Assembly (NCBI RefSeq): GCF_900109645.1
Contig: NZ_FOBG01000001.1
Span: 1,488,001-1,552,000 of the forward strand
From: Duganella sp. CF402
GTDB lineage: Bacteria > Pseudomonadota > Gammaproteobacteria > Burkholderiales > Burkholderiaceae_D
DNA length: 64,000 nucleotides
Reading direction: 5' to 3'
Numbering within the stretch: the first letter of the stretch is position 1; every line of letters begins with the position of its first letter. The notes below the pieces were generated by a model. It was given only the letters and a program-made list of their open reading frames with translations. It did not search any database and was not told the DNA's origin. Shown here one piece after another: positions 28,758 through 56,381 of this stretch. Made by a program: the position numbers and the translations under genes.

Positions 28758-31001
28758 CTACAGGCTGGCCAGGGCCGCGCCAATGCCGCCGCTCAGGCGC
28801 CGCGCCATCTCATCGAGCGTATAGTCGGCGGCGCTGCGCCGCGCCCCGGCACGCAAGCGCGACAGCTTGTCCGGCGCCGATAAGGTGTGCACGATTTCAG
28901 CCGCAAACGCCACGCTGTCATTGACCGTCATGACCCCGTTCACGCCGTTTTCAAGGTAGGCGATCTCGGGCGAATGCAAGCCGCAGTCGGTGGTGAACAT
29001 CGGCGTGCCGCTGGCAAACGAATCGAGGATGCCCAGCCCGACCAGGCCGGGATTGAGCATGACGTCGGCCAGGCGCAAGGCGAGCGCCTTGTCCTGCTCG
29101 TGCAAGGCGCCCAGGACATGAATCCAGCGGTGGCTGTCAGCGGCTTGGTCGATCAGCCCCTGTTCGGGCCCGGCACCGACCACCAGCAGCTGGAAGCCGG
29201 GGATCTGGCGCCGCACTTCCAGCGCCGCCGCCAGCAGGAAGTCCAGGCGTTTTTCCTTGTACAGCGAGCCCAGATAGATGGCCACCGGCCCGTCGCTCAG
29301 GCCCAGCTGCTGCCGCCGCGCCGCCAGCGTCTGGCTATCGATGCCCTGGCACAAGGCCGTCATGGCGGTGGTGTCGATGGCGTTGCGGACCACGGTGGTG
29401 CGGTCCGGCGGAAAGCCGGCGGCCGCGATCAGCGACGCGCTCAGATCGGTGTAGGCGAACCACCAATCGGCGCGGCGGACGGTCCAGCGCTTGAAGCGTT
29501 CCTTCCAGCCTTGGGGACGCGCCGACTGCAGGTTGGCGCCGTGGCCCCAGAATGCCAGCCGCGCCGGGCGCCGCACGAACATCAGCCACAGGTTGTACAG
29601 GATTTTGTTCTCGTGCATGACGATCACGATGTCGGCGCCGCGCGCGTAGCGGCCATACGGCTGCCAGCATAGACGGCCGTTGAGCAGGTAATGGGTCGGG
29701 ATCGACACCACCCAGTCCAGATGCGCGTCGTTGCGCTTGAGCTTTTCGGCCGGCGTGCCCTCGCCGACCAGCAATTGCAGCTCCATGCCCTGGGCCGCCA
29801 GCAGTTCGCGCAGGCGCTCATAGATGCCGACCCGGTAGTGCAGCAGTTGGCGCTCGACGATCAGGACCCGCGGGCGCGAGCGGTAATTGCCGTCCTGCGG
29901 CGCGCTGGCCTGCTGGCGCTGCCACGCGCGGCGGCATGCCTGCTGCAGGCCCTGCGCCGCATGCGCGTAGGTATAGCCGGCCACCAGTTGCTGCGAACGC
30001 GCCGCAAAGCGCCGGTAGGCGGCATCGTCATCGAGCAGGCTGGCGGCGCGCGCGGCCCAGCGGCCGGCGTCGGGCTGGTCGACATAACCATTCTCGCCGT
30101 CCAGCACCAGTTCGCCCACCGCGCCGGCGGCCGGCGTGGTCAGGATCGGCAGCCCGGCGGCACAGGCCTCGTTGAACACCACGCCCCACGGTTCCCAGCT
30201 GGTCGGCATGACGAACAGGCGCGCGCTGCGGTACAGCGCCGGCAGCGCGTGCTGGCTGGCAAAGCCGGCGAAGGTCACGGCCACACGGTCGGCATGGCGG
30301 GCGGCCTCGGCCTTGAGCGCCGCCATCTGCGAGCCGCTGCCGACCATCAGCACGCTCACTTGCCGGCCGCTGCGCGTGGCCAGCGCCAGCGCCATCTGCA
30401 GCACGAACTGCGGCCGCTTGACCGCTTCCAGCCGGCCGCAAAACAGCAGGTCGAACTGCGGCGCCGCCGCCGCCCGCGCAAAGGCCTGGTTGTCAATCGC
30501 CAGGCAGGAGGTGAAGCGCTGCGCGTGCGGCACGCCATAGGCGTCATACAAGGCCTGGCCGCCGGCGCTGGCCGCGACAAAGGCTTGCGAGCGCGCGTAC
30601 ACCCAGCGCCGCACCCAGCGGTGCAGCAGCGTCAGCGTTTGCTCCGACGCCAGCGTGCCGTCGGTCATCGCCACGTGGGCGACGGCGCGCAGCCGGCAGT
30701 AGGCAAACGCATACAGGTGGGTCGGATTGAAGCCGTCGGTCACCACCACGTCCGGATTGTAGCGGTGCAGGCCGCTTAACACGTCGAGGTTGCTGTGGAT
30801 GTAGCGCTGGCGCCAGACCACGAAGCAGCGCTGCAGCGTGGTCTGGCCGGTGCGCAGCGGCGCATAGTCCCACTGCCGGTTCGGCTCGCGCTCGACGCAG
30901 CTGAACACGTGGACCTCGATGCCCGGCATGGCGGCCAGCGCGGAAAACACCGGGGTGCGGTAAGGCGCCAGCGTGTTGGTGACAATCGCAATTTTCAGCA
31001 T
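28758..31001 (-). CDS. Two-domain glycosyltransferase (two GT4-like modules fused)
   Basis: About 747 residues from MLKIAIVTNTLAPY at 31001, where most relatives have about 370. Two complete GT-B proteins are joined in one frame. The first module runs to about residue 365 and has the family E-x7-E motif (SWEPWGVVFNEACAAG) near 268-276 and the Gly-rich start. A short polar linker (RQQASAPQDGNYRSRPR) leads to the second module, which starts RVLIVERQLLHYRVG near 374 and carries YLGSLYKEKRLDFLLAA and NPGLVGLGILDSFASG; there Asn replaces the first Glu of the motif. Each probably adds one sugar to the lipid-linked repeat unit. Transcribed divergently from the main operon. Confidence 0.85.
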   Translation of the reverse strand: MLKIAIVTNTLAPYRTPVFSALAAMPGIEVHVFSCVEREPNRQWDYAPLRTGQTTLQRCFVVWRQRYIHSNLDVLSGLHRYNPDVVVTDGFNPTHLYAFAYCRLRAVAHVAMTDGTLASEQTLTLLHRWVRRWVYARSQAFVAASAGGQALYDAYGVPHAQRFTSCLAIDNQAFARAAAAPQFDLLFCGRLEAVKRPQFVLQMALALATRSGRQVSVLMVGSGSQMAALKAEAARHADRVAVTFAGFASQHALPALYRSARLFVMPTSWEPWGVVFNEACAAGLPILTTPAAGAVGELVLDGENGYVDQPDAGRWAARAASLLDDDAAYRRFAARSQQLVAGYTYAHAAQGLQQACRRAWQRQQASAPQDGNYRSRPRVLIVERQLLHYRVGIYERLRELLAAQGMELQLLVGEGTPAEKLKRNDAHLDWVVSIPTHYLLNGRLCWQPYGRYARGADIVIVMHENKILYNLWLMFVRRPARLAFWGHGANLQSARPQGWKERFKRWTVRRADWWFAYTDLSASLIAAAGFPPDRTTVVRNAIDTTAMTALCQGIDSQTLAARRQQLGLSDGPVAIYLGSLYKEKRLDFLLAAALEVRRQIPGFQLLVVGAGPEQGLIDQAADSHRWIHVLGALHEQDKALALRLADVMLNPGLVGLGILDSFASGTPMFTTDCGLHSPEIAYLENGVNGVMTVNDSVAFAAEIVHTLSAPDKLSRLRAGARRSAADYTLDEMARRLSGGIGAALASL

Positions 31002-31067
31002 GGGAAGGTTCCAGGAAAGAGCGGACCAGCGGCCGCGACATCGGCCATTGAATACCCATTCCGCAGC

Positions 31068-31090
31068 GCCGGTTTGCTTACTGTCATAAA
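31068..31090 (-). promoter_or_regulatory. Shared exopolysaccharide-locus motif upstream of the glycosyltransferase
   Basis: In the direction of the gene this reads TTTATGACAGTAAGCAAA followed by CCGGC. It ends about 66 bases before the start at 31001. It matches the copies at 31151, 53913 and 56382, each in the same orientation relative to its own gene, and it is nearly identical to the copy before the UDP-glucose dehydrogenase gene. Confidence 0.65.
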
Positions 31091-31150
31091 TGCCGGCGAT
31101 CGCGCTCCGGCGCAACAGCGGCTGGCTTATTTTGGCGCTGCGCATGGGTG

Positions 31151-31170
31151 TTATGACAATCAACAAAGAT
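31151..31170 (+). promoter_or_regulatory. Shared exopolysaccharide-locus motif upstream of the export operon
   Basis: Reads TTATGACAATCAACAAAGAT toward the export lipoprotein gene at 31222, about 51 bases from its start. It shares TGACAATCAACAAA exactly with the copy at 53913. No -35/-10 pair at standard spacing was seen, so it is more likely an activator site than a promoter core. Confidence 0.65.
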
Positions 31171-31221
31171 GGCGCGGCCGGGCCGCTTAACCTGAGTCCA
31201 ACCTGATGCAAGGAGCCGCCC

Positions 31222-32337
31222 ATGTCGATGTCCAACCCGCGCCACTGCCGCCTGCAACTGCCGGGCCTGCTGATGATTTGCGGCAGCCTGTTGATGGCCG
31301 GCTGCGCCAACCGCAGCGCCCTGTCCGATAGCACCGGGCGCGCCGACCTGCCGGCCAAGCCGGTCCTGATTACGGCCGCCCTGATCGCCGAGCAGCGCAG
31401 CGCGCGCAAGCAACGCGGCGGCGACGACCTGGCCGCGCTGCGCACCGCGCCCTCCGCCTACACGCTGGGGCCGGGCGACCTGCTGGCCATCAGCGTCTAC
31501 AAGAACGCGGACCTCACCATGTCGGTGCCGGCCGCCGCCGCGCCGGGCGCCGTGGCGGACGAACAGAACGCCGCCGCGCAGCAGGGCTTCCTGCTCAACG
31601 CCGCCGGCGCCATCCAGTTTCCCCTGGTGGGCGAACTGGTGCTGCAAGGGCTGACCGTGGCGCAGGCGCGGGCGCTGTTGACGGAACGGCTGGCCAAATA
31701 CCTGCAGCGGCCCAGCGTCAAGCTGCATGTGCAAGCCTTCCGCAGCCAGCGCATCTATGTCGACGGCGAAGTCAAGCAACCGGGCGTGCAGGCGATCAAC
31801 GACCTGCCGATGACGGTGACCGAAGCGATCAATCGCGCCGGCGGCATCACCGCAGCGGGCGACCAGAGCCAGCTGTGGTTGCTGCGCGACGGCCATCGCT
31901 ATCATATCGACCTGCCGCTGCTGGTGCAGCACGGCGAGGACCCGAACCACCTGCTGATGCGCAGCGGCGACGTGCTGCGCGTGACGGCGCTGGACGAGAG
32001 CAAGGTGTTTGTCAGCGGCGAGGTGGTCACGCCCAAGGCGCTGCTGATGCACAGCGGCCGCCTGTCGCTGAACGAGGCGATCGGCGAAGCCGGCGGCATC
32101 AATCCGCTGAGCGGCGATGCGCGGCGGGTGTTCGTGGTGCGGCGCCGCCAGGACACCATCGAGCTGTACCAGCTGGATGCGCGCGACACCGGCGCGCTGG
32201 CGCTGGCCGAAAGTTTTGAACTGGCGCCGCGCGACCTGGTGTTCATCGACGCCACCGGGCTGGCGCACTGGCACCGCACGCTCAGTCTGATCATCCCCGG
32301 CGCGCTGACGTCGGCCGTCAGCGCCGGGAAGCAATGA
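31222..32337 (+). CDS. Polysaccharide export lipoprotein (Wza/EpsA-like)
   Basis: A 371-residue lipoprotein with the lipobox LLMAGC near residue 28. A Poly_export domain follows, with YTLGPGDLLAISVYKNADL at about 75-93 and FPLVGELVLQGLTVAQARALL, then two SLBB-type repeats (IYVDGEVKQPGVQ, VFVSGEVVTPKALL). The C-terminus ends in a hydrophobic segment fit to form the outer-membrane helical barrel (TLSLIIPGALTSAV). This is the standard exit channel for capsule and exopolysaccharide in Wzx/Wzy systems. It is the first gene of the rightward operon and overlaps the co-polymerase gene by 4 bases. The shared motif lies upstream. Confidence 0.92.
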   Translation: MSMSNPRHCRLQLPGLLMICGSLLMAGCANRSALSDSTGRADLPAKPVLITAALIAEQRSARKQRGGDDLAALRTAPSAYTLGPGDLLAISVYKNADLTMSVPAAAAPGAVADEQNAAAQQGFLLNAAGAIQFPLVGELVLQGLTVAQARALLTERLAKYLQRPSVKLHVQAFRSQRIYVDGEVKQPGVQAINDLPMTVTEAINRAGGITAAGDQSQLWLLRDGHRYHIDLPLLVQHGEDPNHLLMRSGDVLRVTALDESKVFVSGEVVTPKALLMHSGRLSLNEAIGEAGGINPLSGDARRVFVVRRRQDTIELYQLDARDTGALALAESFELAPRDLVFIDATGLAHWHRTLSLIIPGALTSAVSAGKQ

Positions 32338-34589
32338 TGGACCGCCCGCTGTCCCAGCGCGCCCTGCCCGCCCCCGCCAGCCTGCAGGCGGCGGCGCCGC
32401 TGCCGCCCTACGAGGCCGAGATCGAGCTGACCGGCTACCTCGACATCCTCGTCGAGCAGCGCTGGCGCATGGCCTGGATCTTGTCGCTGTGTCTGTTCTG
32501 CGGCGGCGTGTACGCGCTGCTGGTGGCGCCGGTCTACGAGGCCACCATGCTGATCCACGTGGAAGAGGACCTGCCCAACAACAATACCAAAAATATGATC
32601 GGCGAGATTTCCTCCATGTTCGACGTCAAGGCGGCCGCCATCTCGGAAATGGAGCTGATCAAGTCGCGCATGGTGATTGCCAAGTCGGTCGACAGCCTCG
32701 GCCTGTACATCGACGCCCACCCGGTCTACCTGCCGCTGGTCGGCGCCGCCATCGCGCGCTACCGCCGCGGCCTGTCCGCGCCCGGCCTGTTCGGCTACGG
32801 CGGCTACGCCTGGGGCGCGGAAGCGATCGACATCACCCGCTTCTACGTGCCGGAGGCACTGCAGAACAGCCACTTCCGCGTGATCGCCGGCCCCGGCCGC
32901 GACTACCGCCTGCTGCACGCTCAGTCCGGCATCGACGTCCACGGCCAGACCGGCGTGCCGCTGACCCTGACCCTGCCGCAGGGCCAGCTGCTGCTGACCA
33001 TTGAACAGCTGGCGGCCAAACCCGGCACCGAATTTTCGCTGCGCTACGTGCCCAAACTGGCGGCCATCGAGCAGGTGCAAAAGGCGCTGCTGGTGGCCGA
33101 GATCGGCAAGCAGTCGGGCCTGATCAGCGTCACCATGAGCGGGCCGGACGCCAAGAGCACGTACGACACCCTGAGCGCCATCGGCCGCGAGTACATTCAC
33201 CAGAACGTCACCCGCAAGCTGGAGGAGGCGGAAAATTCGCTGGCCTTCCTGGAAAAGCAGCTGCCCGACATCAAGCAGCGGCTGGACCAGTCGGAAAGCG
33301 CGTTCTACCGCTTCCGCCACCAGAGCGGCACCGTGGACCTGGCCGAGGAAAGCAAGCTCAGCCTGCAGCAACTGGCGGCGGTCACCGCGCGCCAGCTGGA
33401 GTTGCGCCAGAAGCGCAACGAACTGCTGGTCAGCTTCACCGCCGCCCACCCGCTGGTCGAAGCGCTCGACCAGCAACTTGGCCAGCTGGACCGCGAGAGC
33501 GCCCGCGTCAACCAGCAGATCCGCAAGCTGCCCATCCTTGAACAGGAATTGCTGCGCCTGAACCGCGAAGTCAAGGTCAATACCGAGCTCTACAGCGCGC
33601 TGCTGAACTCGGCGCAGCAGTTGCGGCTGGTGAAGGCTGGCAAGGTCAGCAACGTGCGCCTGATCGACTTGCCGATGCTGCCCGAAGCGCCGGCCCGGCC
33701 GCACCGCGGCACCATCATGGCGGTCGCGGCGGCGGCGGGGCTGTGCCTCGGGCTGGCGGTGGTGGTGCTGCAGCGCCTGCTGGTCAAGGGCATCCAGAGC
33801 GCCCGCGCCATCGAGCAATTGCTGGGCGCGCGCGTGGTGTACGCCAACATCCCGCACAGCGCGGCGCAGGAGCGCTACCGCCAGCACGCGGCCAAGGCCG
33901 GGCGCGCGGCGCTGCCGCTGCTGGCGGCGCTGGCGCCGGGCGACCCGGCGGTGGAAAGCCTGCGCTGCTTCCGCACCACGCTGCAGGTCAGCATGCCGCG
34001 CCAGCGCAACAACGTGGTGCAGATCTGCGGCGCCACCGCGCTGCTGGGCAAGTCCTTCATCTGCGCCAATTTCGCCGCGGTGCTGGCCTCCAGCGGCAAG
34101 CGCGTGCTGCTGATCGATGCCGACCTGCGCGGCGGCCAGCTGCACTGCTATTTCGGGCAGCCGCGCGGCGCCGGCCTGAGCGAGGTGATCGGCGCCAGCC
34201 TGCCCCTGCAGCAAGCGGTGCGCGAGACCGGCATCGGCCACCTGCAACTGCTGACGACCGGCGCCCTGCCGCCCAACCCGGCGGAATTTCTGCTGCACCC
34301 CAACGTCGGCGCGCTGCTGGCGCTGGCCTCGCTCGACTGGGACTACGTGCTGCTCGACGTGCCGCCGCTGCTGGCGGTATCGGACGCGCTGGTGCTGGGC
34401 AGCCACGCCGGCGCCGTGTTCATCGTGGCGCGCGCCGGCCACACCAGCGACGACGAACTGAATGAGTCGGTCAAGCGCCTGAACCATGCCGGGGTCGCCC
34501 CGCAAGGGGTGCTGTTCAACGACCTGCGGCTGCGCCACGCCGCCTCTCCGCGCCTGCCGGCGCCGGCGCTGCCGGCGCTGGCCGGCTAG
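32334..34589 (+). CDS. Wzc-like polysaccharide co-polymerase / BY-kinase without C-terminal tyrosines
   Basis: A 751-residue PCP-2a type inner-membrane protein. The first transmembrane helix is near residues 46-67 (Wzz domain start), a long periplasmic coiled coil follows, the second helix is near 459-480, and a cytoplasmic kinase domain ends the chain. The kinase has a Walker A (CGATALLGKSFICAN, about 563-577), Walker A' (VLLIDADLRGG, about 590-600) and Walker B (YVLLDVPPLL). The C-terminus (RLRHAASPRLPAPALPALAG) has no tyrosine cluster, unlike E. coli Wzc. It controls chain length and drives export with the lipoprotein. Translationally coupled to that gene by an ATGA overlap. Confidence 0.92.
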   Translation: MMDRPLSQRALPAPASLQAAAPLPPYEAEIELTGYLDILVEQRWRMAWILSLCLFCGGVYALLVAPVYEATMLIHVEEDLPNNNTKNMIGEISSMFDVKAAAISEMELIKSRMVIAKSVDSLGLYIDAHPVYLPLVGAAIARYRRGLSAPGLFGYGGYAWGAEAIDITRFYVPEALQNSHFRVIAGPGRDYRLLHAQSGIDVHGQTGVPLTLTLPQGQLLLTIEQLAAKPGTEFSLRYVPKLAAIEQVQKALLVAEIGKQSGLISVTMSGPDAKSTYDTLSAIGREYIHQNVTRKLEEAENSLAFLEKQLPDIKQRLDQSESAFYRFRHQSGTVDLAEESKLSLQQLAAVTARQLELRQKRNELLVSFTAAHPLVEALDQQLGQLDRESARVNQQIRKLPILEQELLRLNREVKVNTELYSALLNSAQQLRLVKAGKVSNVRLIDLPMLPEAPARPHRGTIMAVAAAAGLCLGLAVVVLQRLLVKGIQSARAIEQLLGARVVYANIPHSAAQERYRQHAAKAGRAALPLLAALAPGDPAVESLRCFRTTLQVSMPRQRNNVVQICGATALLGKSFICANFAAVLASSGKRVLLIDADLRGGQLHCYFGQPRGAGLSEVIGASLPLQQAVRETGIGHLQLLTTGALPPNPAEFLLHPNVGALLALASLDWDYVLLDVPPLLAVSDALVLGSHAGAVFIVARAGHTSDDELNESVKRLNHAGVAPQGVLFNDLRLRHAASPRLPAPALPALAG

Positions 34590-34613
34590 CCCCCTGACCT
34601 GATTGGAATGCAC

Positions 34614-35723
34614 ATGTCCGCTCCCTCCCTCCCGCCGCTGCTGGCCGTGCGCGAGCACCACGTCCGCTGCTGGCACAACCAGGTGCCCGACTGGGTCGGT
34701 CCGGCGCTGGAACGGCTGTATGGCAACCTGTTTGCCTCGCTGCCGCAGTTCCGTACCAGCCGCGACCTGGGCGCGGCCCACACCTACGCCGTGTACCAGC
34801 GCGGCGAACTGCGCACGCTGTTCATCTTCAGCCTGCAGCACGGCGTGGCCACGCTGTACAACGAGGTGATTGCGGTCAGCGCAGCCGAGATCCAGGACTT
34901 CGCCGACTATGTGTTTGCCGAGTTCGCGGCAGCGCAGGTGATCAGCCTGCGCGCGGTGCAGGCCGCGCACCACCGCTACCGCTACCCGAGCCAGCAGTAC
35001 GACTACCTGGAAGACACGGTGGTGGCGCTGCCCGCCAGCGTGGCCGCCTATACCGACAGCCTGAGCAAGAACACCCGCCGCAACGTGCGGCGCTACGGCC
35101 AGAGCGTGGAGCGCGGACTGCCCGGCTGCCGTTTCACCGTCCGCCTGGGCAGCGAGGTCGACCCCGCGCAGATCGACGCCGTGATCGCGCTCAACCATGC
35201 GCGCATGGCCGGCAAGCAGCGGCGCTCGATCATCGACCGCGCCGAAACCGAGCGCCTGCAAAACCTGGCGCGCCACTGCGGCCTGGTGGCGCTGCTGACC
35301 ATCGACGGCAAGGTCTGCGCCGGCGCCATCAGCTACCGGGTCGGCGACAACTTCTTCCTGGTGGTGCTGGCGCACGCGCCCGAGTACGACCGCTACAGCC
35401 TGGGTTTCATGTGCTGCTACTGGACCATCAGCGCCTGCATCGAGCGCGGCGGCAAGGAATTCCACTTCCTGTGGGGGCGCTACGACTACAAGCGCCTGTT
35501 CCTCGGCCAGCTGCGCCAGCTCGACCAGCTGCAGCTGTACCGCTCGCGGCGCGCGCTGCTGGCCCACGGCGGCCTGTGGCTGCGCAGCTGGTGGCGGGCG
35601 CAGCAGCGCCGCCTGCTGGTCTGGCTGCACGCCGCGCGCCACAGCGAGCGCGCCGGCGTGCGCACCGTGTGGCAAGCCTACACGCTGCTGCGGCGCTGGC
35701 GCCAGCGCCTGGCGCCGCGCTGA
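34614..35723 (+). CDS. GNAT/FemAB-like acetyltransferase family protein in the polysaccharide operon
   Basis: About 369 residues from MSAPSLPPLL at 34614; the ATG at 34608 has no well-placed Shine-Dalgarno. A long FemAB/CelD-type fold is suggested by SLSKNTRRNVRRYGQSVE, as the conserved basic loop, and later AGAISYRVGDNFFLVVLAHAPEYDRYSLG with IERGGKEFHFLWGRYDYK. It has no signal peptide. Members of this Acetyltransf_6 family occur in cellulose and capsule loci, where their substrates are mostly unproven; acyl transfer to an amino sugar is plausible. It lies between the co-polymerase and the GMC oxidoreductase genes. Confidence 0.8.
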   Translation: MSAPSLPPLLAVREHHVRCWHNQVPDWVGPALERLYGNLFASLPQFRTSRDLGAAHTYAVYQRGELRTLFIFSLQHGVATLYNEVIAVSAAEIQDFADYVFAEFAAAQVISLRAVQAAHHRYRYPSQQYDYLEDTVVALPASVAAYTDSLSKNTRRNVRRYGQSVERGLPGCRFTVRLGSEVDPAQIDAVIALNHARMAGKQRRSIIDRAETERLQNLARHCGLVALLTIDGKVCAGAISYRVGDNFFLVVLAHAPEYDRYSLGFMCCYWTISACIERGGKEFHFLWGRYDYKRLFLGQLRQLDQLQLYRSRRALLAHGGLWLRSWWRAQQRRLLVWLHAARHSERAGVRTVWQAYTLLRRWRQRLAPR

Positions 35724-35768
35724 CGCGCTGCCGACGCCGCCACCGTCCCCTCCTCACGAAAGATTGCC

Positions 35769-37430
35769 ATGTTCATCGATACGCGCCAGCTTGGCCCGCT
35801 CACCCAGGTCGACACCACCGTCTGCATCGTCGGCGGCGGCGTGGCCGGCCTCACCATCGCGCTGGAGATGGAGCGCCTCGGCATCGCCACCTGCCTGCTG
35901 GAAAGCGGCGGTTTCCACGCCGACGACGCCACCCGCGACCTCTACCGCGGCGCCGACCTCGGCCTGCCCTACCGCTTTGCCGACGGCTGCCGCAGCCGTT
36001 TCCTCGGCGGCAGCAGCAACTGCTGGGGCGGCTGGTGCCGGCCGCTCGATCCCTGGGATTTCCAGCAGCGGCGCTGGATCCCGCACAGTGGCTGGCCGTT
36101 CGGGCCGGAAGCACTGGCGCCGTACTACCTGCGCGCGCACGCGGTGTTGCAACTGGGGCCGTACAACTACGTGCCGCAATACTGGGTCGACGCCATCGGC
36201 CGTGCCGACGTGCGGCGCCTGCCGCTGCGCAGCGGCAAGGTGCGCGACACGATTTCGCAGTTCAGCGCGCCGGTGCGCTTTGGCGCCGCCTACCGCCAGG
36301 ACCTGCAGCGCGCGCGCCAGGTGCGGGTCTACCTGTGGGCCAACGCCACCCACCTGGCCGCCGCCCGCCCGGCGCACCAGCTCGAGCAAGTCGAGGCGCG
36401 CACCCTGTGCGGGCGCCGCCTGCAGGTGCGCGCCCGCTATTACGTGCTGGCGGCCGGCGGCATCGAAAATGCGCGCCTGCTGCTGGCGTCCGACGATGTC
36501 CAGCCGGGCGGGCTGGGCAACGGCAACGACCTGGTCGGCCGCTACTTCATGGACCATCCGCGCATCCTGTCCGGGCAGCTGGCCTGGCTGCCGGAGTGGC
36601 GCCGCAACAAACTGTATGACATCAAGTACCACTACCAGAACACGGCGGTGGCGGTCGGCGCCACCCGCGTCGCGGCCCAGCTGGCGCTGAGCGAGGCCAC
36701 CCAGGCCAGCGAAGGCTTGCTCAACGCCCGCGTCTGGTTTTCCTCGACCTTCCCGGGCGAAGGCAGCCCGGCCGCCGCCGCCCTGTTCCGCTACAAGCAG
36801 GCCGCGCTCAGCAAGGACCAGCCGGACTGGCAGCCGCTGGCCGACGCCGCGCTGATGGTGCGCCATCCGCTAGACACGCTGGGCTACGGCATGACCCGCC
36901 TGCTGCAGCCGCGCTGGCTGGTGCGCGAGGTGCGCTTCCAGGCCATCGTCGAGCCGCAGCCCGATCCCGACAGCCGGGTGACGCTGTCGGCCACCGAGCA
37001 CGACGCGCTGGGCATGCGCCGGGTGCAGGTCGACTGGCGCCTCGGCAGCAATGTCCAGCGCACCTTCGACCGCACGCTGGCCATCATCGGCGCCGAACTG
37101 GAACGCGACGGCGTGGCCAAGGTGACGCTGGGGCCGACGCTGGAAGGCGGCCCCTGGCCGTCCAGCCTGGAACCGGAAGGCACCTGGCATCACATGGGCA
37201 CCACCCGCATGCACCGCTCGCCGCGCCACGGCGTGGCCGATGCCGACTGCCGCGTGCACGGCATGCGCAACCTGTACCTGGCCGGCAGCTCGCTGTTCCC
37301 CACGGCCGGCGCCAACTTCCCGACCATCACCCTGACCGCGCTGGCGCTGCGGCTGGCCGACCACCTGGCCGCCGAGCTGCGGCGGCCGGTGGCCACGGCC
37401 GCCACGCCCAGCGAGGCCTCGCTCCACTAA
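35769..37430 (+). CDS. GMC-type FAD-dependent oxidoreductase in the polysaccharide operon
   Basis: A 553-residue protein with the FAD dinucleotide motif CIVGGGVAGLTIALEME at residues about 19-35 and Gly-rich LGGSSNCWGGWC in the substrate-side region. The C-terminal GMC domain has HHMGTTRMH near 474, with the conserved His, and AGANFPTITLTALALRLAD at the end. GMC enzymes oxidise primary or secondary alcohols, including sugars such as glucose and choline-like substrates. Placement between the GNAT gene and the initiating transferase gene suggests a sugar modification step; there is no export signal, so the substrate is cytoplasmic. The function here is inferred. Confidence 0.87.
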   Translation: MFIDTRQLGPLTQVDTTVCIVGGGVAGLTIALEMERLGIATCLLESGGFHADDATRDLYRGADLGLPYRFADGCRSRFLGGSSNCWGGWCRPLDPWDFQQRRWIPHSGWPFGPEALAPYYLRAHAVLQLGPYNYVPQYWVDAIGRADVRRLPLRSGKVRDTISQFSAPVRFGAAYRQDLQRARQVRVYLWANATHLAAARPAHQLEQVEARTLCGRRLQVRARYYVLAAGGIENARLLLASDDVQPGGLGNGNDLVGRYFMDHPRILSGQLAWLPEWRRNKLYDIKYHYQNTAVAVGATRVAAQLALSEATQASEGLLNARVWFSSTFPGEGSPAAAALFRYKQAALSKDQPDWQPLADAALMVRHPLDTLGYGMTRLLQPRWLVREVRFQAIVEPQPDPDSRVTLSATEHDALGMRRVQVDWRLGSNVQRTFDRTLAIIGAELERDGVAKVTLGPTLEGGPWPSSLEPEGTWHHMGTTRMHRSPRHGVADADCRVHGMRNLYLAGSSLFPTAGANFPTITLTALALRLADHLAAELRRPVATAATPSEASLH

Positions 37431-37446
37431 CGACAGTCCCGACACC

Positions 37447-38820
37447 ATGCGCATCCCCTTACTCAACGATACCGAACGGCTCAGCTTTGCGCTGCGCCTG
37501 GGCGACCTCGCGCTGCTGACGCTGGCCGGCCTGGGCGCCAGCCGCTGGCAGCTCCTGGGCACGATGGCGGCGCCGGCGCCGGCCTGGCTGCCGCTGTGCG
37601 TGGCGCTGGGCGCGGCGCTGCTGCCGCAGTGCGGCCTGTACCGGCTGGACTTGCCGGGCGCACCGCGCGCGCTGCTGGCGCGGCTGCTGGCAACCTGGCT
37701 GTGCCTGCTGGCCGGGTCCCTGCTGGCCGGCCTGGTGCTGGAGCAGTCGCCACGCGCCACGCTGCTGTGGCTGGGACAGTGGCTGCTGCTGGCGCTGCCG
37801 CTGATGTGGGGGCTGCACATGGCCGCGCGCGGCGCCGGCCTGAGCCCGGCGCGGGTGCTGGTGATCGGCCAGGCCGGCGCCAGCCAGACGCTGTACCAGC
37901 GCCACCGCCAGGCCGGCGCCGGGCCCTACCAGATCACCGCGCTGTGCCTGACCGACGGCGCCAGTGCGCCGGCCGCGGCCGGGGTCGAGCAGATCGCGCG
38001 CAGCAGCCAGGTGCCGGCCTACGTCGGCAGCCACGCGATCGACCAGATCTGGATCGTGCTGCCGCTCAGCGACGCCGCCGCCATCGCCCGCCTGCAGCAT
38101 CTGCTGCGCAATACCCTGGTGCACATCCGCTGGCTGCAGGACCTGCGCGACCTGCAGGTGCTCAACGTCAGCGGCAGCACGCTGTACGACTTCCCGGTGC
38201 TGGACCTGAACTGCATGAAAGCCAGCGCCGCCGGCCAGCTGCAGAAATACCTGTTCGACAAGGTCTTCGCGCTGCTGGCGCTGCTGCTGCTGGCGCCGCT
38301 GCTGCTGCTGATCGGCCTGGCCATCCGCTGCGAGACGCCGGGGCCGGCGCTGTTCGTCCAGCCGCGCATCGGCCTCAACGGGCGCCAGTTCAGGCTCTAC
38401 AAGTTCCGCAGCATGCACCGCCACGCCGACAGCCCGACCCTGCAACAGGCCGGCCGCGACGACCCGCGCGTGACCCGGCTCGGGCGCTGGCTGCGGCGTA
38501 CCAGCCTCGACGAGCTGCCGCAGTTTTTCAACGTGCTGCTGGGCGACATGTCGGTGGTCGGTCCGCGCCCGCACGCAGTCCCGCACACCGAGCTGTACTG
38601 CCGCCAGCTCGACGTCTACATGGTGCGCCACCGCGCCAAGCCCGGCATCACCGGCTGGGCCCAGATCAACGGCGCGCGCGGTGAGACCGACACGCTCGAC
38701 AAGATGATCCGGCGGGTGCAGCTGGACCTGTATTACCTGCAGCACTGGTCGCTTTGGCTGGACCTGCGCATCGTGCTGTGGACAGCCTGCAAGGGCTGGA
38801 CCGGCAACAACGTTTATTAA
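37447..38820 (+). CDS. Undecaprenyl-phosphate glucose phosphotransferase (WcaJ-like)
   Basis: A 457-residue polyprenyl-phosphate hexose-1-phosphate transferase. The N-terminal half has four hydrophobic helices, a CoA-binding-like region ([17 protein letters not shown]) and a further helix near residue 275-300. The C-terminal catalytic domain carries [32 protein letters not shown] and [11 protein letters not shown], the typical signature, and ends [15 protein letters not shown] with [14 protein letters not shown]. This step places the first sugar, probably glucose-1-phosphate by homology to WcaJ/GumD, on the lipid carrier. It commits precursor to the repeat unit. Short intergenic gaps on both sides indicate co-transcription. 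Confidence 0.9.
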
Positions 38821-38844
38821 CCATGACATCACCAGGAGCCCCAG

Positions 38845-40023
38845 ATGAATGACAAGCCCGCACTATCCGCGCTGGAGCGCGCAATGCCGCAGCCGCACGC
38901 TGCCAAGGTGGCGCTGATCACCGGCATCACCGGCCAGGACGGCTCTTACCTGACCGAACTGCTGCTCGACAAGGGCTATGTGGTGCACGGCATCGTGCGG
39001 CGCAGCTCCAGTCCCAACACCAGCCGCATCGACCACCTGCTGGGCAGCAGCGACGCCGCCGGCGGCCGCCTGTTCCTGCACGACGGCGACCTGACCGACG
39101 CCGCCGCGCTGATGCGCATCATGGCGGCCGTGCGGCCCGACGAGGTCTACAACCTGGCCGCCCAGAGCCACGTCGCCTGCTCGTTCGAGGTGCCCGAGTA
39201 CACCGCCCAGACCGACGCGCTCGGTCCGCTGCGGCTGCTGGAGGCCATCCGCACGCTGGGGCTGACCCACCGCACCCGCTTCTACCAGGCCTCCACCTCG
39301 GAGCTGTATGGCCAGGCCCAGGCCTCGCCGCAGGCGGAGGACACGCCGTTCGCGCCGCGCAGCCCGTACGCGGCGGCCAAGCTGTATGCCTACTGGATCA
39401 CCGTCAATTACCGCGAGGCGTATGGCATCTACGCCTGCAACGGCATCCTGTTCAACCACGAATCGCCGCGCCGCGGCAACGAATTCGTGACGCGCAAGAT
39501 CACCCTGGCGCTGGCGCGCATCGCCTGCGGCCAGCCGGCCACGCTGCGCCTGGGCAACCTGGCCGCGCTGCGCGACTGGGGCCATGCACGCGACTACGTG
39601 GCGATGCAATGGCTGATGCTGCAGCAGCCCGATGCGCGCGATTACGTGATCGCCACCGGCGTGCATTACAGCGTGCGCCACTTTGTCGATTGCGCCGCCC
39701 ATGAACTGGGCATCACGCTGGCATGGTCCGGCACCGGCTTGCACGAACGCGCCCACATTGCCGCGCTGCAGGCCGGCTCGGCCGCGGCCGCGCACTGCCG
39801 CTGCGGCCAGCTGGTGGTGCAGATCGACCCGGCGCTGTTCCGCCCGACCGAAGTGGCCACCCTGCTCGGCGACGCCAGCCGGGCGCGCCTGCAACTGGGC
39901 TGGACGCCGCAGCACAGCTTTGCGCAGCTGGTGCGCGGCATGGTGCAGGCCGACCTGGCGCTGGCCATGGCCGCGGCGCCCGCCAGCGCGCCCGCTGCCG
40001 TCCACCGGGAGAATCTCGCATGA
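38845..40023 (+). CDS. gmd: GDP-mannose 4,6-dehydratase
   Basis: A 392-residue extended short-chain dehydrogenase. It shows [19 protein letters not shown] for NADP binding, the catalytic ASTSELYG and the YxxxK pair in [22 protein letters not shown]. Further on [17 protein letters not shown] is a family signature close to the LGNLDAKRDWGHAKDYV pattern. It converts GDP-mannose to GDP-4-keto-6-deoxymannose, the first step to GDP-fucose. The start at 38845 has AGGAG about 9 bases upstream; a few extra N-terminal residues come before the first strand. The stop overlaps the next gene's start (ATGA), and the next gene does the second step. Confidence 0.93.
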
Positions 40024-41096
40024 ACCCGCTCAGCCAACGCATCTTCGTCGCCGGCCACCGAGGGCTGGTCGGCTCGTCCATCGTGCGCGCCCTGCGCCGC
40101 CAGGGCTATGTCAATCTGCTGACCTGCTCGCACGAGCAGCTCGACCTGACCGACCAGGCCCAGGTGCGCGCGCTGTTCAAGCGCGAATCGATCGACGTGG
40201 TCTACCTGGCCGCCGCCACCGTCGGCGGCATCCACGCCAACAACAGCTATCCCGCCGAGTTCATTTATTCGAACATGGCCATCGAGGCCAACGTGATCCA
40301 CGAAGCGTGGCGCCACGGCACCCAGAAGCTGCTGTTCCTCGGCTCGTCGTGCATCTACCCGCGGCTGGCGCCGCAGCCGATCCACGAATCGGCGCTGCTG
40401 CACGGCGCGCTGGAGCCGACCAACGAACCGTACGCGATTGCCAAGATCGCCGGCATCAAGATCTGCGAAAGCTACAACCGCCAGTACGGCACCCGCTTCC
40501 GCAGCGTCATGCCGACCAATCTGTACGGCCCGGGCGACAACTACCATGCCGAGAACAGCCACGTGATCCCGGGCCTGATCCGGCGCCTGCACGACGCCCG
40601 CCACAGCGGCGCCAAGGAGGTGCTGATCTGGGGCACCGGCGAGGCGCGCCGCGAATTCCTGTATGTGGACGACCTGGCCAACGCCTGCCTGCACGTGATG
40701 AACGTCAGCGAGGACCGCTACCGCAGCGTCACCAAGCCGATGGTGTCGCACCTGAACATCGGCAGCGGCGAGGAAGTCAGCATCGCCGCGCTGGCGCAGA
40801 TGATCGCGCAGATCGTCGGCTACGGCGGCCGCCTGGTATTCGACCTCAGCCGGCCGGACGGCACGCCGCGCAAGCTGCTCGACACCGCCAGCCTGAACAA
40901 GCTGGGCTGGCGCGCCAGCGTCACCCTGGCGCGCGGCCTGCAGGAGACCTACCACAGCTTCCTGCGCGCCGAGCAGGCCGGCAGCCGCCAGCAGCAGGCG
41001 CGGGCGCTGGACCCGGTCTCGCACCGGCTGCGCGGCCAGTTCCAGCCGGCGCCGTCGCTGGCCCATGCCTACGCCGACATGCGTGCGCCCTACTGA
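40020..41096 (+). CDS. fcl: GDP-L-fucose synthase
   Basis: About 358 residues from [19 protein letters not shown]; the frame is open upstream into gmd, but the ATGA overlap and homology fix the start at 40020. It is an epimerase/reductase of the SDR family: [15 protein letters not shown] binds NADP, then [16 protein letters not shown] and [15 protein letters not shown] contain the Ser-Tyr-Lys catalytic set, and [11 protein letters not shown] is typical. It turns GDP-4-keto-6-deoxymannose into GDP-L-fucose. The C-terminus is somewhat longer than average (residues about 318-358, Gln/Ala-rich). It supplies the fucose expected in the polymer. Confidence 0.93.
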
Positions 41097-41108
41097 GGCC
41101 GGGCCGCC

Positions 41109-42395
41109 GTGTCGACCACCCGCGAGCGCCGCCCGCGCCTCCCTGCCCTGGCGGCGCTGCGCGCGCCGCTGCTGCTGAGCCTGGCCAATCAGCTGCTGGG
41201 CAGCGGCGCCAATTTCGTGGTCGGGGTGTACCTGGCGCGCAGCCTGGCGCTGGCCGAATTCGGGCTGTACGGCATCTGCTACGGCCTGTGCATGCTGTAC
41301 CTCGGCGTCGGCAACGCCCTGCTGCTGACCCAGATGACCGTCAGCATGGCCGGCCAGCCGTCCGCCGTGCAGGCGGCCTATGCCGGGCGGGTGCTGGCCG
41401 GCATCCTGCTGCTGGGCAGCGTGCTGCTGCTGGCCGGCGCCGCCAGCGCCGCCGCGCTGTGGCGCTGGGACGCTGCCAGCCCGTATGCGGGGCTGGCAGC
41501 GCCGGTGGCGGTGGCGGCAGCGCTGATGCTGTGCGGCGAATTTTTCATCACCTACGCCTACATCCGCCACCACGAGCGCGCGGCGCTGCTGGTCAATGCC
41601 GCCGCGCTGGTGGTGGTGGCGGGCGGGCTGGCGCTGCTGCATGGGGCCGGCATGGCGCCGGACGCGGCCGGCGTGCTGCTGCTGTACGCCGGCGGCAATG
41701 CGCTGGGCGCCGCGCTGGCCTACCTGAGCGCGCCGCTGGCCTGGCGCCAGCCGCTGCCGCAGTTGCGCTGCCACTGGCGCAGCGCGCGCGGCCACGGCGG
41801 CTGGTCGCTGGGCGGGATGGCCATCAGCTGGGTGCAGGCGCAAAGCGCGACCTACACCCTGGCCGCCATGCTGGGACCGGCCGGCGCCGGGCTGGCCAAC
41901 CTGAGCCGCCTGTTCATCTCGCCGTTCACCTTCCTGGTGCCGGCGGTAAACAAGATTGCGCTGCCGCGGCTGGCGGCGCTGCGCGCCAGCGACCCGCGCC
42001 GCATGCGCCGCCTGGCCACCCGGCTGGCGCTGGCGATGGTGCTGCTGGCGGCGCTGTACGCGCTGCTGCTGCTGTCCTGCCTGGGCTGGCTGGCGCCGCT
42101 GCTGCTGGGCTACAGCGTGCCGCAGCTGCCGCTGCTGGTGGCGGTGTGGTGCCTGGTGCTGCTGTTCCAGGTGGGCCGCAGCTGCGGCGCCCTGTTGTTG
42201 CAGACGCAAATGAAGTTCCGCCAGCTGACGCTGATTACGCTGCCGTGCGCAGTGCTGGCGGTGGGCACGGCGGTGCTGCTGATGCAGCGCTATCAGGCGG
42301 CCGGCGCCATTGCCGGCGTACTGGCCGGCGAAGGCTTGCTGGCCCTGCTTATCTGGAAGGAGATCGCTCATGGCGCCCGAACTGAACTCGGTTGA
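41109..42395 (+). CDS. Oligosaccharide flippase (Wzx-like)
   Basis: A 428-residue membrane protein with a GTG start at 41109. About 12 to 14 hydrophobic helices alternate with short polar loops, and the start PLLLSLANQLLGSGANFVVG looks like MOP-superfamily flippases. Such proteins move lipid-linked repeat units from the cytoplasmic to the periplasmic leaflet for Wzy-dependent polymerisation. It is 12 bases downstream of fcl and overlaps the following GT2 gene by 26 bases. Sequence conservation in the family is low, so the call rests on topology and on context. Confidence 0.85.
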   Translation: MSTTRERRPRLPALAALRAPLLLSLANQLLGSGANFVVGVYLARSLALAEFGLYGICYGLCMLYLGVGNALLLTQMTVSMAGQPSAVQAAYAGRVLAGILLLGSVLLLAGAASAAALWRWDAASPYAGLAAPVAVAAALMLCGEFFITYAYIRHHERAALLVNAAALVVVAGGLALLHGAGMAPDAAGVLLLYAGGNALGAALAYLSAPLAWRQPLPQLRCHWRSARGHGGWSLGGMAISWVQAQSATYTLAAMLGPAGAGLANLSRLFISPFTFLVPAVNKIALPRLAALRASDPRRMRRLATRLALAMVLLAALYALLLLSCLGWLAPLLLGYSVPQLPLLVAVWCLVLLFQVGRSCGALLLQTQMKFRQLTLITLPCAVLAVGTAVLLMQRYQAAGAIAGVLAGEGLLALLIWKEIAHGARTELG

Positions 42396-43290
42396 TATCT
42401 GTATTGCCACCTATCGCCGGCCGGCCTTGCTGGCCGCGCTGCTGGCCGCGCTGGCGCAGCAGGACCGGCGCGGCATGGCGGTGCGCCTGATCGTGATTGA
42501 CAACGACCGCCACGGCACGGCGCGCGCGGCGGCGCGCGCCGGCGCCGCCCACAGCGGCCTGCCGCTGCTCTACCAGATCGAGCCGCAACAGAACATCGCG
42601 CTGGCGCGCAACCGGGCGCTGCGCTTAAGCAAGGCCGACTACATCGTCTTCATCGACGACGATGAAACCCCCGCGCCCGGCTGGCTGGCGGCGCTGCTGA
42701 CGTGCTGCCAGCGCTGCGACGCCGATCTGGTGTTCGGCCCGGTCGACAGCGTGCTGCCGGCCGACGCGCCGGCGTGGGCCCACGCCTGTTTCCACAAGCC
42801 GCCGCTGGCCACCGGCGCGGCGCTGCGCTACGGCGGCGCCGGCAACGTGCTGCTGCGGCGCCGCGTGCTGGCCCCGCCCGGCCCCTGGTTCGATCCCGAT
42901 TTCGGCCTGACCGGCGGCGAAGATCTGGACTGGTTCTATCGCCTGCACCTGGCCGGCCGGCGCCTGGTCTGGTGCGCCGAAGCCAGCGCCAGCGAGCCGG
43001 TGCCGCCGGCGCGCCTGCAACTGCGCTGGGCGCGCCGGCGCGCCTTCCGCGGCGGGCAGACCTACTACCGGGTGGTGGTGCGGCGCAGCCCGCGCCGCAG
43101 CCGCTGGCTGTGGTTGGGCGGCAAGGCCCTGCAACTGCTGGCGGGCCTGGCGCTGGCGCCGCTGCTGCGCTGCGCCAGCTATCCGGCGTTTGTGCAGCTG
43201 ACGCTGCGCCTGGCCGGCGCCGCCGGCCAGCTGTCGCGCAGCCTGGTGCCCTACGACTACGAGGAATACCATGCGCGCCAACAGCCTTAA
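42370..43290 (+). CDS. Glycosyltransferase family 2
   Basis: About 306 residues from MAPELNSVDICIATYRR at 42370, preceded by AAGGAG; the frame is open earlier inside the flippase gene. It is a GT-A protein with the donor motif DYIVFIDDDETPAPGWL, the metal-binding DDD, near residues 93-105 and GGEDLDWFYRLHLAG as the acceptor-side ED motif near 185. A hydrophobic stretch near the C-terminus (LLAGLALAPLLRC) may hold it at the membrane. It probably adds one sugar to the repeat unit. The start lies within the end of the flippase gene and the stop overlaps the polymerase gene by 20 bases. Confidence 0.88.
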   Translation: MAPELNSVDICIATYRRPALLAALLAALAQQDRRGMAVRLIVIDNDRHGTARAAARAGAAHSGLPLLYQIEPQQNIALARNRALRLSKADYIVFIDDDETPAPGWLAALLTCCQRCDADLVFGPVDSVLPADAPAWAHACFHKPPLATGAALRYGGAGNVLLRRRVLAPPGPWFDPDFGLTGGEDLDWFYRLHLAGRRLVWCAEASASEPVPPARLQLRWARRRAFRGGQTYYRVVVRRSPRRSRWLWLGGKALQLLAGLALAPLLRCASYPAFVQLTLRLAGAAGQLSRSLVPYDYEEYHARQQP

Positions 43291-44605
43291 CCTTACCCCG
43301 GCCGGCGCCGGCGGCCTGGCCGACCGCTGGTGCGCGTGGCCGCTGCTGATCCTGATGGCCAGCTCCGGCCTGCCGATCAGCTACAGCCTGGCGCCGGCGC
43401 GCGTCATGGCGGTGGCCGACGTGGCCGAGCAGACCGCCGCTGCCGCCTCCAGCGCCAGCACCCTGGGCTCGCTCGGCAACCTGCTGCTGCTGGGCGGCCT
43501 GTACAGCTGGGCCGGCGCCATGCTGCTCAGCCGGCCGCGCAGCGTGGCCGCGGTGCTGCTGCGCTGCTGGCCGCTGCTGCTGCTGATGGCGCTGCTGCTG
43601 GCCAGCGCGCTGTGGAGCTATCTGCCGGAAAAAGTCCTGCTCAACGTGGTGCACAACAACGGCGTGCTGCTGATCGCGCTGGCGGCCGCCATGCGCTACC
43701 GCCACCAGCCGGCCAGCCTGCCGCAGCAGCTGGGGCTGGTACTGGGCGCCAACATGGCGCTGCAGGTGGCGGCCGTGCTGCTGCTGCCCGGCTATGCCAT
43801 CGACTGGCAGGGCCGCTGGCAGGGCCTGACCGTGCACCCCAATACGCTGGGCGGGCTCGGCTTCACTGCCTTCTGGGCCAATGCGGCCGCGCTCAGCGCC
43901 GGCCCGCCGCCCTGGCCGCGCTGCCACTGGCTCGGTTGCGCACTGTCGCTGCTGGCCATCGGCGGCGCCGACAGCGTCACCTCCAAGGTGTGCGTGGCGC
44001 TGGTGCTGCTGGTGCTGCTGGGCCTGCGCTGGCTGCGGCGGCGCGGCACCAGCCGCCAGCAGTACCTGCGGCTGCTGGCGGCCGGCGCCATGCTGCTGGT
44101 GCTGCTCAAATTGCTGGCCGGCGCGGTCGACCTCGAATGGCTGTACGCGCTGCTGGGGCGCAACAGCCAGCTGACCGGCCGCGACGAGGTGTGGCGCGAC
44201 GCCTACCAGGCCATCGGCGCGCGGCCGCTGCTGGGCTGGAGTTTCGACGACCACGCCTACCTGATCGCCTCGGCCGGCATGCCGTATTCGAGCTACCACA
44301 ACGGCGTGCTCGACCTGGCGGTCAACGGCGGCGGCGTGGCGGTGCTGCTGCTGGCGCTGCTGATGCTGAACTGGGCGGCCGGCATGCTGCGGCCGCGCCT
44401 GCTGGCGGCGCGCATTGCGCCGTACTCGGTGGCGTTCGTGCTGGCCTACATGCTGCACAACCGGGCCGAAGCCTCGTACGTGTCGCCGCGCGGCCAGATG
44501 TGGGTGATCTTCCTGGCGCTGCTGCTGCTGGGCGCCTGCCGCCCGCCGCAGCGCCAGCGCGAGCACGGCCTGTCCTTTGCGGAGGCCGGCCATGCAGCCC
44601 GCTGA
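43271..44605 (+). CDS. O-antigen ligase/polymerase family protein (Wzy-like)
   Basis: A 444-residue integral membrane protein with about 10 to 12 hydrophobic segments and a large periplasmic loop in the C-terminal half containing NSQLTGRDEVWRDAYQAIG and YSSYHNGVLDLAV, the Wzy_C/WaaL-family pattern. In a locus with Wzx and Wzc homologues the natural call is the polymerase that joins repeat units in the periplasm. A ligase role is not excluded by sequence, but there is no LPS locus here. The start overlaps the GT2 gene by 20 bases and the stop overlaps the acyltransferase gene by 14 bases. Confidence 0.87.
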   Translation: MRANSLNLTPAGAGGLADRWCAWPLLILMASSGLPISYSLAPARVMAVADVAEQTAAAASSASTLGSLGNLLLLGGLYSWAGAMLLSRPRSVAAVLLRCWPLLLLMALLLASALWSYLPEKVLLNVVHNNGVLLIALAAAMRYRHQPASLPQQLGLVLGANMALQVAAVLLLPGYAIDWQGRWQGLTVHPNTLGGLGFTAFWANAAALSAGPPPWPRCHWLGCALSLLAIGGADSVTSKVCVALVLLVLLGLRWLRRRGTSRQQYLRLLAAGAMLLVLLKLLAGAVDLEWLYALLGRNSQLTGRDEVWRDAYQAIGARPLLGWSFDDHAYLIASAGMPYSSYHNGVLDLAVNGGGVAVLLLALLMLNWAAGMLRPRLLAARIAPYSVAFVLAYMLHNRAEASYVSPRGQMWVIFLALLLLGACRPPQRQREHGLSFAEAGHAAR

Positions 44606-48744: not shown

Positions 48745-51300
<2,556 letters not shown>

Positions 51301-52455: not shown

Positions 52456-52758
52456 ACCGAAAATTCCTTTTTTAAATTTCCCGCCACGCATGCATATGTA
52501 GTTTTATCCCTGCGCCAGCGCCAGATATTGCAGATGTTGTGACTTTCATCAGGAAAATTATGAGAAAGACCCGCAACTCCCGGTTATTAGCAGACCAGTC
52601 TGATACTCTGATTAAGCGTTATCCTATTGACACTGCTGCATTTTTGTTTATCTGAATATTTTTTCACCACTCGGCAGCACCGTTCTCATAGTCTTTCATT
52701 TGGCGCCGTATTGCGGTAGCTGGCATTCCCCGAGTTTGTTTATTATCAGGAGATGTTA
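52456..52758. other. AT-rich divergent regulatory region before the Crp-family gene
   Basis: About 300 bases between the divergent deacetylase and regulator genes, rich in A and T with no supported gene. A weak resemblance to the shared locus motif (TTGACACTGCTGCATTT near 52628) is present but not convincing. The AGGAG at 52748-52752 serves the regulator gene. Confidence 0.5.
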
Positions 52759-56301: not shown

Positions 56302-56381
56302 GGAATTTAGCCCGGCGAGTGAGGGGTCGACACTGACCGCAATTTGCGGCAACAGCTGCTATTTGATATCAGCCCGGCGCC

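Follow-up and report, generated by a model that had tools for sequence, protein, structure and literature searches.

In a stretch of 64,000 nucleotides from Duganella sp. CF402 (contig NZ_FOBG01000001.1; hereafter the window, with positions counted from its first letter), a Wzx/Wzy-type exopolysaccharide (EPS) locus occupies positions 31222-48463 of the plus strand, and two genes inside it, encoding a GNAT-type protein and a GMC oxidoreductase, are the subject of this analysis. The gene order is Wza, Wzc, GNAT, GMC, WcaJ, gmd, fcl, Wzx, GT2, Wzy, AT3-SGNH, GT4, WecG, and all parts of a Wzx/Wzy EPS locus are found there (initiating phosphoglycosyltransferase, Wzx, Wzy, Wzc and Wza), the Wzx match being weak. 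The GNAT and GMC genes are intact open reading frames (ORFs) between the Wzc-type co-polymerase and the WcaJ-type initiating transferase, with same-strand gaps by ORF coordinates of 18 bp (Wzc-GNAT), 45 bp (GNAT-GMC) and 16 bp (GMC-WcaJ), and the order Wzc/GNAT/GMC/WcaJ is kept in other genomes. The position and the two family names proposed by the first-pass annotation are thus borne out (Acetyltransf_6 for the GNAT; GMC_oxred_C and DAO for the GMC protein). Its span of 34614-37430 ends correctly at the end of the GMC ORF but begins at the second ATG of the GNAT ORF, which starts at 34608. The genes of the locus and two further genes of the window are as follows.

31222-32337, plus strand: Wza-like outer-membrane export protein (Poly_export 4e-21, SLBB domains).
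32334-34589, plus strand: Wzc-type co-polymerase and tyrosine autokinase (Wzz, GNVR, WZC_N and kinase domain; TIGR01007 over cut-off).
34608-35723, plus strand: FemX-fold tandem GNAT, putative N-acyl or aminoacyl transferase (Acetyltransf_6 1.8e-18).
35769-37430, plus strand: GMC flavoprotein of the EPS-locus clade (GMC_oxred_C, DAO, clade motifs; H474 of H-x-x-G-T and N516 invariant).
37447-38820, plus strand: WcaJ-type undecaprenyl-phosphate glucose phosphotransferase (WcaJ_sugtrans TIGR03023, 413.6 bits, cut-off 410.75).
38845-40023, plus strand: gmd, GDP-mannose 4,6-dehydratase (TIGR01472 over cut-off).
40020-41096, plus strand: fcl, GDP-L-fucose synthase-like (NF047922, 489.6 bits, slightly below the cut-off of 500; start codon picked by eye).
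41109-42395, plus strand: Wzx-like flippase (Polysacc_synt_3, 27.0 bits, cut-off 23, a weak match).
42370-43290, plus strand: GT2 glycosyltransferase (Glycos_transf_2 3.3e-15; start codon picked by eye).
43271-44605, plus strand: Wzy-like polymerase (Wzy_C 2.3e-10).
44592-46562, plus strand: AT3-SGNH O-acyltransferase (SGNH 8.4e-41, Acyl_transf_3 4e-36; start codon picked by eye).
46540-47709, plus strand: GT4 glycosyltransferase (Glycos_transf_1 1.9e-27; start codon picked by eye).
47699-48463, plus strand: WecG/TagA/CpsF glycosyltransferase (PF03808 2.5e-56; start codon picked by eye).
51715-52491, minus strand: CE4-like polysaccharide deacetylase, which may supply the GNAT with free amines (PF01522 5.4e-18).
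54904-56304, minus strand: UDP-glucose dehydrogenase-type nucleotide-sugar dehydrogenase (PF03721 3.7e-65; start codon picked by eye).

The Pfam scan covered 16 window proteins; the ORF GTab at 28758-31445 lies outside the scanned set.

The GMC protein matches GMC_oxred_C with 70.4 bits (Pfam cut-off 24.6, E = 2.9e-19). GMC_oxred_N gives no match at 1e-3 in the protein, nor at its place in a genome scan in which three other genes matched, and the flavin adenine dinucleotide (FAD) domain is covered by DAO (1.9e-9) and by the fold match. The dinucleotide-binding GxGxxG and the catalytic residues (G22, G24, G27, E45, H474 and N516) are invariant in all 37 aligned members; H474 aligns with H1147 of fructose dehydrogenase, and N516 fits the second catalytic position, its register being one residue off on one anchor. 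In a profile search the protein lies nearest to FAD glucose dehydrogenase (E = 1.3e-37) and fructose dehydrogenase (1.7e-31), followed by pyranose oxidases. The AlphaFold2 model (mean predicted local distance difference test, pLDDT, 83.6) ranks the same enzymes highest: fructose dehydrogenase (Z 33.8, root-mean-square deviation (rmsd) 3.4, 431 residues aligned), glucose dehydrogenase (Z 31.5, rmsd 3.5, 436 aligned), C-glycoside oxidase (Z 30.8, rmsd 2.5, 296 aligned) and pyranose 2-oxidase (Z 30.1, rmsd 3.7, 405 aligned). Because the closest folds and profiles are sugar oxidoreductases, the GMC enzyme likely acts on a sugar, so that of the two options in the first-pass annotation, sugar-oxidising or alcohol-oxidising, the former is favored on predicted structure and sequence.

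The large subunits of FAD glucose dehydrogenase (Burkholderia cepacia) and fructose dehydrogenase (Gluconobacter), which give these best matches with the catalytic histidine aligned, are 21-25% identical with the window GMC in the aligned part. Unlike them, the window GMC has no gamma (hitchhiker) subunit beside it and sits in a Wzx/Wzy operon, and no cytochrome c was found among the 16 window proteins scanned. No hitchhiker subunit (Gluconate_2-dh3, PF13618) occurs near the gene, the single match in the genome adjoining another GMC gene about 82 kb away; export as a glucose dehydrogenase-type complex was ruled out on this ground. Judged by eye from sequence and model, the first Rossmann strand begins too close to the N terminus for a signal peptide to fit ahead of it. 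A cytoplasmic GMC enzyme would fit both observations. An identity as pyranose oxidase was also ruled out: the window GMC has its fold in common with pyranose 2-oxidase and C-glycoside oxidase and gives a C-terminal match to TIGR02462 (residues 401-537 only, E = 6.6e-15), but at 55.0 bits this is far under the cut-off of 544.9.

To place the GMC gene among its relatives, we used the best 80 of 168 from a scan of one genome per species (79 Burkholderiales and one metagenome-assembled genome of Nevskiaceae); their loci are designated by L numbers, and their ORFs were called roughly by longest-ORF or codon-usage scripts, the first of which gave 75 GMC-cluster ORFs for the 80 loci. Loci of 16 distant relatives were fetched as well, and the GMC ORF was read in 13 of them; none was labelled in L103, L105 and L113, nor in L119. 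In a tree of 98 rows, made with FastTree only and with long branches outside the EPS-locus clade, 81 rows fall on one branch with support of 100, and the remaining 17 rows are the 16 distant relatives and one other GMC of the window's genome. Three motifs, GGSSNCWGGW, WHH(M/I)GTTRMH and N-x-P-T-x-T, occur in 81/81 clade rows and in 0/17 others, while the general H-x-x-G-T-x-x-M is present in 81/81 and 13/17, respectively. Among these best 80 relatives, the nearest named one is that of Duganella guangzhouensis (L004, 93% identity), and the clade is also present in named species such as P. fungorum and Paraburkholderia xenovorans LB400, the GMC of the latter having a WcaF-like neighbor.

The clade keeps company with polysaccharide genes. 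Wza and/or Wzc genes are present in 51 of the 55 relative loci whose flanks reach about 10 kb in both directions, and in 60/80 when short contigs are counted. The four full-flank loci that lack both are L021, L026, L036 and L046; in the L036 and L046 genomes, GMC is preceded by gmd at a distance of about 15 kb (contigs matched by coordinates), and L026 carries other polysaccharide genes. Homologs of WcaJ head the same cluster in four Paraburkholderia/Burkholderia genomes (L041, L069, L045 and L053, contigs likewise matched by coordinates), which indicates that a WcaJ-initiated unit is common. A gmd gene is present in all eight genomes in which it was sought, and a WcaJ relative in all ten searched for one, in some cases about 15-33 kb from GMC on the same contig and in others elsewhere. 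A strict link between GMC and fucose was nevertheless dropped, because gmd/fcl exceed 150 bits in 50/80 loci (many of the loci being short) and they are missing from the 10 kb around GMC in several Oxalobacteraceae loci. In the Burkholderiaceae loci, identity to the window is 58-65% for GMC, 61-66% for gmd and 52-57% for fcl, compared with 31-42% for Wza and 29-40% for Wzc. The high identity of GMC against the low identity of Wza and Wzc suggests, though indirectly, a small substrate shared among loci (for instance a nucleotide sugar, or the first sugar on the carrier) rather than a variable late structure.

In the window's family GMC is found in 42/294 genomes and 12/44 genera (E ≤ 1e-60). 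Within this sample no further member of the window's genus group carries it, while D. guangzhouensis and D. aceris do. It is found in 9/300 genomes of the order at the same threshold (three at 59% identity or more, three at 48-49% and three at 34-38%), and in 18/398 of the phylum (E ≤ 1e-40), of which 16 are at 45% identity or less. GMC is therefore a recurrent minority trait, and the earlier statement that such an enzyme is not usual in a Wzx/Wzy locus needs to be qualified: it recurs in such loci of Burkholderiales, but in a minority of genomes.

A PDB sequence search with the GNAT gave nothing useful (one chance match at E = 0.48), so folds were compared instead. The model (pLDDT 89.9) places two GNAT domains in the FemX arrangement, with Z scores of 20.6 to FemX (rmsd 3.4, 290 aligned), 19.5 to FemA and 18.4 to the aminoacyl-tRNA-dependent Sbb17. 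The label GNAT is thus right as to family and understates a predicted tandem protein of the FemX type. In the family sample, at least 20 of the 42 GMC genomes have a same-strand GNAT gene no more than 1.3 kb upstream of GMC, and at least seven more have one within 15 kb (in one case on the opposite strand). GNAT relatives (E ≤ 1e-20) occur in 72/294 family genomes, 31 of them without GMC; counted by hand and uncorrected for kinship, a relative exists somewhere in 41/42 genomes with GMC and in 31/252 without it.

The pair, which the first-pass annotation had proposed to seek in other loci, does recur with GNAT upstream of GMC, but it is not obligate: in 47/80 loci, from Paraburkholderia, Caballeronia and Trinickia, the upstream gene is WcaF-like instead (the representative scores 181 bits against NF007797, slightly below the cut-off of 192). 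Among the 81 clade rows, 16 have GNAT, 47 have a WcaF-like gene and 18 have neither. On the whole tree of 98 rows the upstream labels (GNAT 16, WcaF 47, other 35) need six changes, where two would be the minimum. Since the upstream neighbor varies, GMC seems, as read from these gene arrangements, to work beside either type of acyltransferase, or beside neither. The L010 locus has a deacetylase gene placed between GNAT and GMC; the window has one near its locus, at 51715-52491.

In comparison with L004, the nearest relative, GMC has a ratio of nonsynonymous to synonymous substitution rates (dN/dS, NG86) of 0.14 and GNAT one of 0.32, with Wzc, WcaJ and gmd at 0.19-0.36. Against the more distant L006 the values are 0.57, 0.92 and 0.49-0.71, respectively, although dS looks compressed in this GC-rich DNA and the L004 figures alone are therefore dependable. 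GNAT is less conserved than GMC in both comparisons, and GMC is, by its dN/dS relative to L004, under purifying selection.

These results are best accommodated if the GNAT and GMC proteins are tailoring enzymes of a Wzx/Wzy exopolysaccharide, a reading to which we give a probability of about 0.6. The cytoplasmic FAD enzyme would oxidize a hydroxyl of a sugar intermediate common to many Burkholderiales polymers, acting either on a nucleotide sugar or on a sugar attached to the undecaprenyl carrier, and would yield a keto-, aldehydo- or uronic-type residue, or an epimer after later reduction. The FemX-fold transferase, with acyl-CoA or aminoacyl-tRNA as candidate donor, would decorate the unit by acylating or aminoacylating an amine on it, perhaps one freed by the deacetylase of the locus, as has been proposed for HfsK of the Caulobacter holdfast. 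The cytoplasmic location, the sugar substrate and the role in the polymer are each inferred. The earlier proposal that the two genes make an unusual substituent or sugar is a plausible hypothesis.

Several observations weigh against this reading. Choline oxidase too has the GMC fold (Z 29.1 to the model), so a non-sugar substrate is possible and the fold alone leaves the substrate unfixed; the tie between GMC and sugar is drawn from comparison of sequences and models. The model is poor at loops 71-87 and 470-472, and its Foldseek superpositions have TM-scores of about 0.6 with rmsd near 8. When aligned on the following T-x-T, the catalytic asparagine is one residue off that of the dehydrogenases, and the active site may therefore differ. 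GMC has no fixed reductase partner within its own clade, and 15/42 GMC genomes of the family have no GNAT nearby among the matches listed, several of these GMC genes lying at contig ends. Polysaccharide-protein matches occur within five genes of GMC in 9/13 distant loci read, and the other four (L102, L112, L114 and L117) have none within five genes on each side. Because the 17 rows outside the clade lack N-x-P-T-x-T and only 13 of them have H-x-x-G-T-x-x-M, these contexts are weak evidence for the clade in any case. Finally, no aminotransferase was found among the 16 window proteins scanned, by which a route from keto-sugar through an aminotransferase to N-acylation was ruled out.

An alternative that we regard as unlikely, yet alive, is a two-step epimerase, in which GMC makes a keto-sugar and a separate short-chain dehydrogenase/reductase (SDR; fcl, galE or another) converts it to an epimer, the product being an ordinary-looking rare sugar. 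A precedent exists in mycobacterial DprE1/DprE2, a flavin oxidase and an SDR epimerase that act in this way on decaprenyl-phosphoryl ribose. DprE1 belongs to the VAO flavin family and not to GMC; the possible likeness lies in oxidation followed by reduction of a polyprenyl-linked sugar, while the clade of the window GMC is without a fixed SDR partner. What keeps this alternative alive is that a nicotinamide adenine dinucleotide (NAD)-dependent epimerase/SDR is the next called gene downstream of distant GMCs in 3/13 distant loci read (L109, overlapping; L110, 41 bp; L116, a gap of about 1 kb). A GalE-like cluster, read by eye, lies within two genes downstream of GMC in 10 near-set loci, and keto-sugars rarely persist as such in polymers. 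The neighboring SDRs, however, are of different families (HpnA-like, ArnA/UDP-xylose-synthase-like and GalE-like, all under cut-offs), and the one in Noviherbaspirillum resembles an ordinary GalE. In the window no SDR adjoins GMC, gmd and fcl following WcaJ, and in the rough gene calls of the Burkholderiaceae loci no SDR cluster adjoins it either.

It is less probable still that GMC works in series with the acyltransferase by oxidizing a non-sugar alcohol, which would then serve as a substituent (an acyl group, for instance). An acyltransferase gene does stand upstream of GMC in both branches: of the 81 clade rows, 16 have GNAT there and 47 a WcaF-like gene. The two types are nevertheless unrelated (FemX fold versus hexapeptide repeat), the closest folds to GMC are sugar enzymes, and neither an acyl-CoA ligase nor any other activating enzyme was found among the 16 window proteins scanned. 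The least credible alternative, that the pair is a passenger of the operon concerned with redox housekeeping, detoxification or regulation and irrelevant to polymer chemistry, would suit a gene carried by a minority of genomes and by no other member of the window's genus group in the family sample (two named Duganella species do carry it), but it is hard to reconcile with strong retention with polysaccharide loci across genera, with purifying selection relative to L004 and with clade-specific motifs in 81/81 rows.

A more far-reaching version of the tailoring role, to which we attach a slender chance, is that the GMC clade represents a new class of polysaccharide enzyme, a cytoplasmic flavoprotein that installs a keto or aldehyde carbonyl on the repeat unit before export. 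With deacetylase and N-acyltransferase of the same locus setting the free amines, such a polymer could cross-link itself via imines and act as a self-curing extracellular glue. In the next most far-reaching version, the clade would represent a flavin-driven two-step sugar epimerase working on the undecaprenyl carrier.

As to known systems, colanic-acid-type loci have the core genes WcaJ, Wza, Wzc, gmd, fcl and WcaF in common with the window or its relatives, the GMC gene being the difference of the window. To our knowledge, the gene lists of colanic acid and cepacian contain no GMC, and flavin-dependent oxidation is rare in Wzx/Wzy assembly, where the tailoring enzymes we know of are NAD-dependent or are acyl-, methyl- or pyruvyltransferases. 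No description of a GMC enzyme in a Wzx/Wzy locus was found in the open-licence PMC literature among the matches listed; the few papers there with "GMC" hits (for example PMC5371717, PMC12474784, PMC4175613 and PMC13001252) have titles on other subjects. The words "gmc" and "oxidoreductase" are absent from the main text of a paper describing the bce genes (PMC4101177).

The families themselves are known, and it is the conserved GMC clade tied to EPS loci that appears to be undescribed. Because relatives of GMC recur in comparable loci across many related bacteria, a polymer feature as yet undescribed is likely. If the tie holds, a recurrent modification of the polymers of soil and plant-associated Burkholderiales has been overlooked, and the short diagnostic motifs and the named species that carry the clade allow a direct test from gene to structure.

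Among known systems the GNAT comes close to HfsK, described as a tandem GNAT of the FemX type whose substrates may be amines that the deacetylase HfsH uncovers (PMC5362036). The window protein resembles HfsK in its predicted FemX-type tandem fold, its polysaccharide setting, a deacetylase in the region and a C-terminal extension (Arg-rich here, by eye). HfsK binds cyclic di-GMP (c-di-GMP) and has a role in cohesion; the window GNAT is likened to it from genes and model. Near the EPS locus, at 53952-54911 on the plus strand, the window also encodes a PAS-like protein with a GGDEF motif (translation read by eye), which might supply c-di-GMP should the GNAT be of the HfsK kind.

Several loci of relatives have further features near GMC. 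A galactose-oxidase-like protein in L120 (6384-8534, minus strand; GO-like_E_set over cut-off and Glyoxal_oxid_N under) adjoins a GMC relative of 46-48% identity, behind two GT4 genes and a HAD phosphatase. At L107 (9404-10194, minus strand) the neighbors of a distant GMC relative (34%) are a cytochrome c gene and an unassigned small ORF, an arrangement that suggests an exported dehydrogenase close to rml-type genes. Another distant relative, at L106 (9485-11485, minus strand), adjoins an asparagine-synthase-like protein whose best match is the XrtA/PEP-CTERM amidotransferase TIGR03108 (484 bits, under the cut-off of 816.9). Two GMC genes no more than about 7 kb apart are present in L116 (7613-14683, minus strand), in the neighborhood of AT3, dTDP-sugar isomerase and SDR genes. 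In Noviherbaspirillum (L014, 12866-19148, plus strand), GMC and a GalE-like gene are followed by four tandem secreted-looking proteins of one family, the C-terminal part of which is laminarinase-like (GH16-like by eye). In the window itself, positions 48745-51300 of the minus strand encode a secreted-looking protein of 851 amino acids with two similar halves (by eye) and no Pfam match over cut-off, and relatives of this protein with 80% and 67% identity lie near GMC in L007 and L025.

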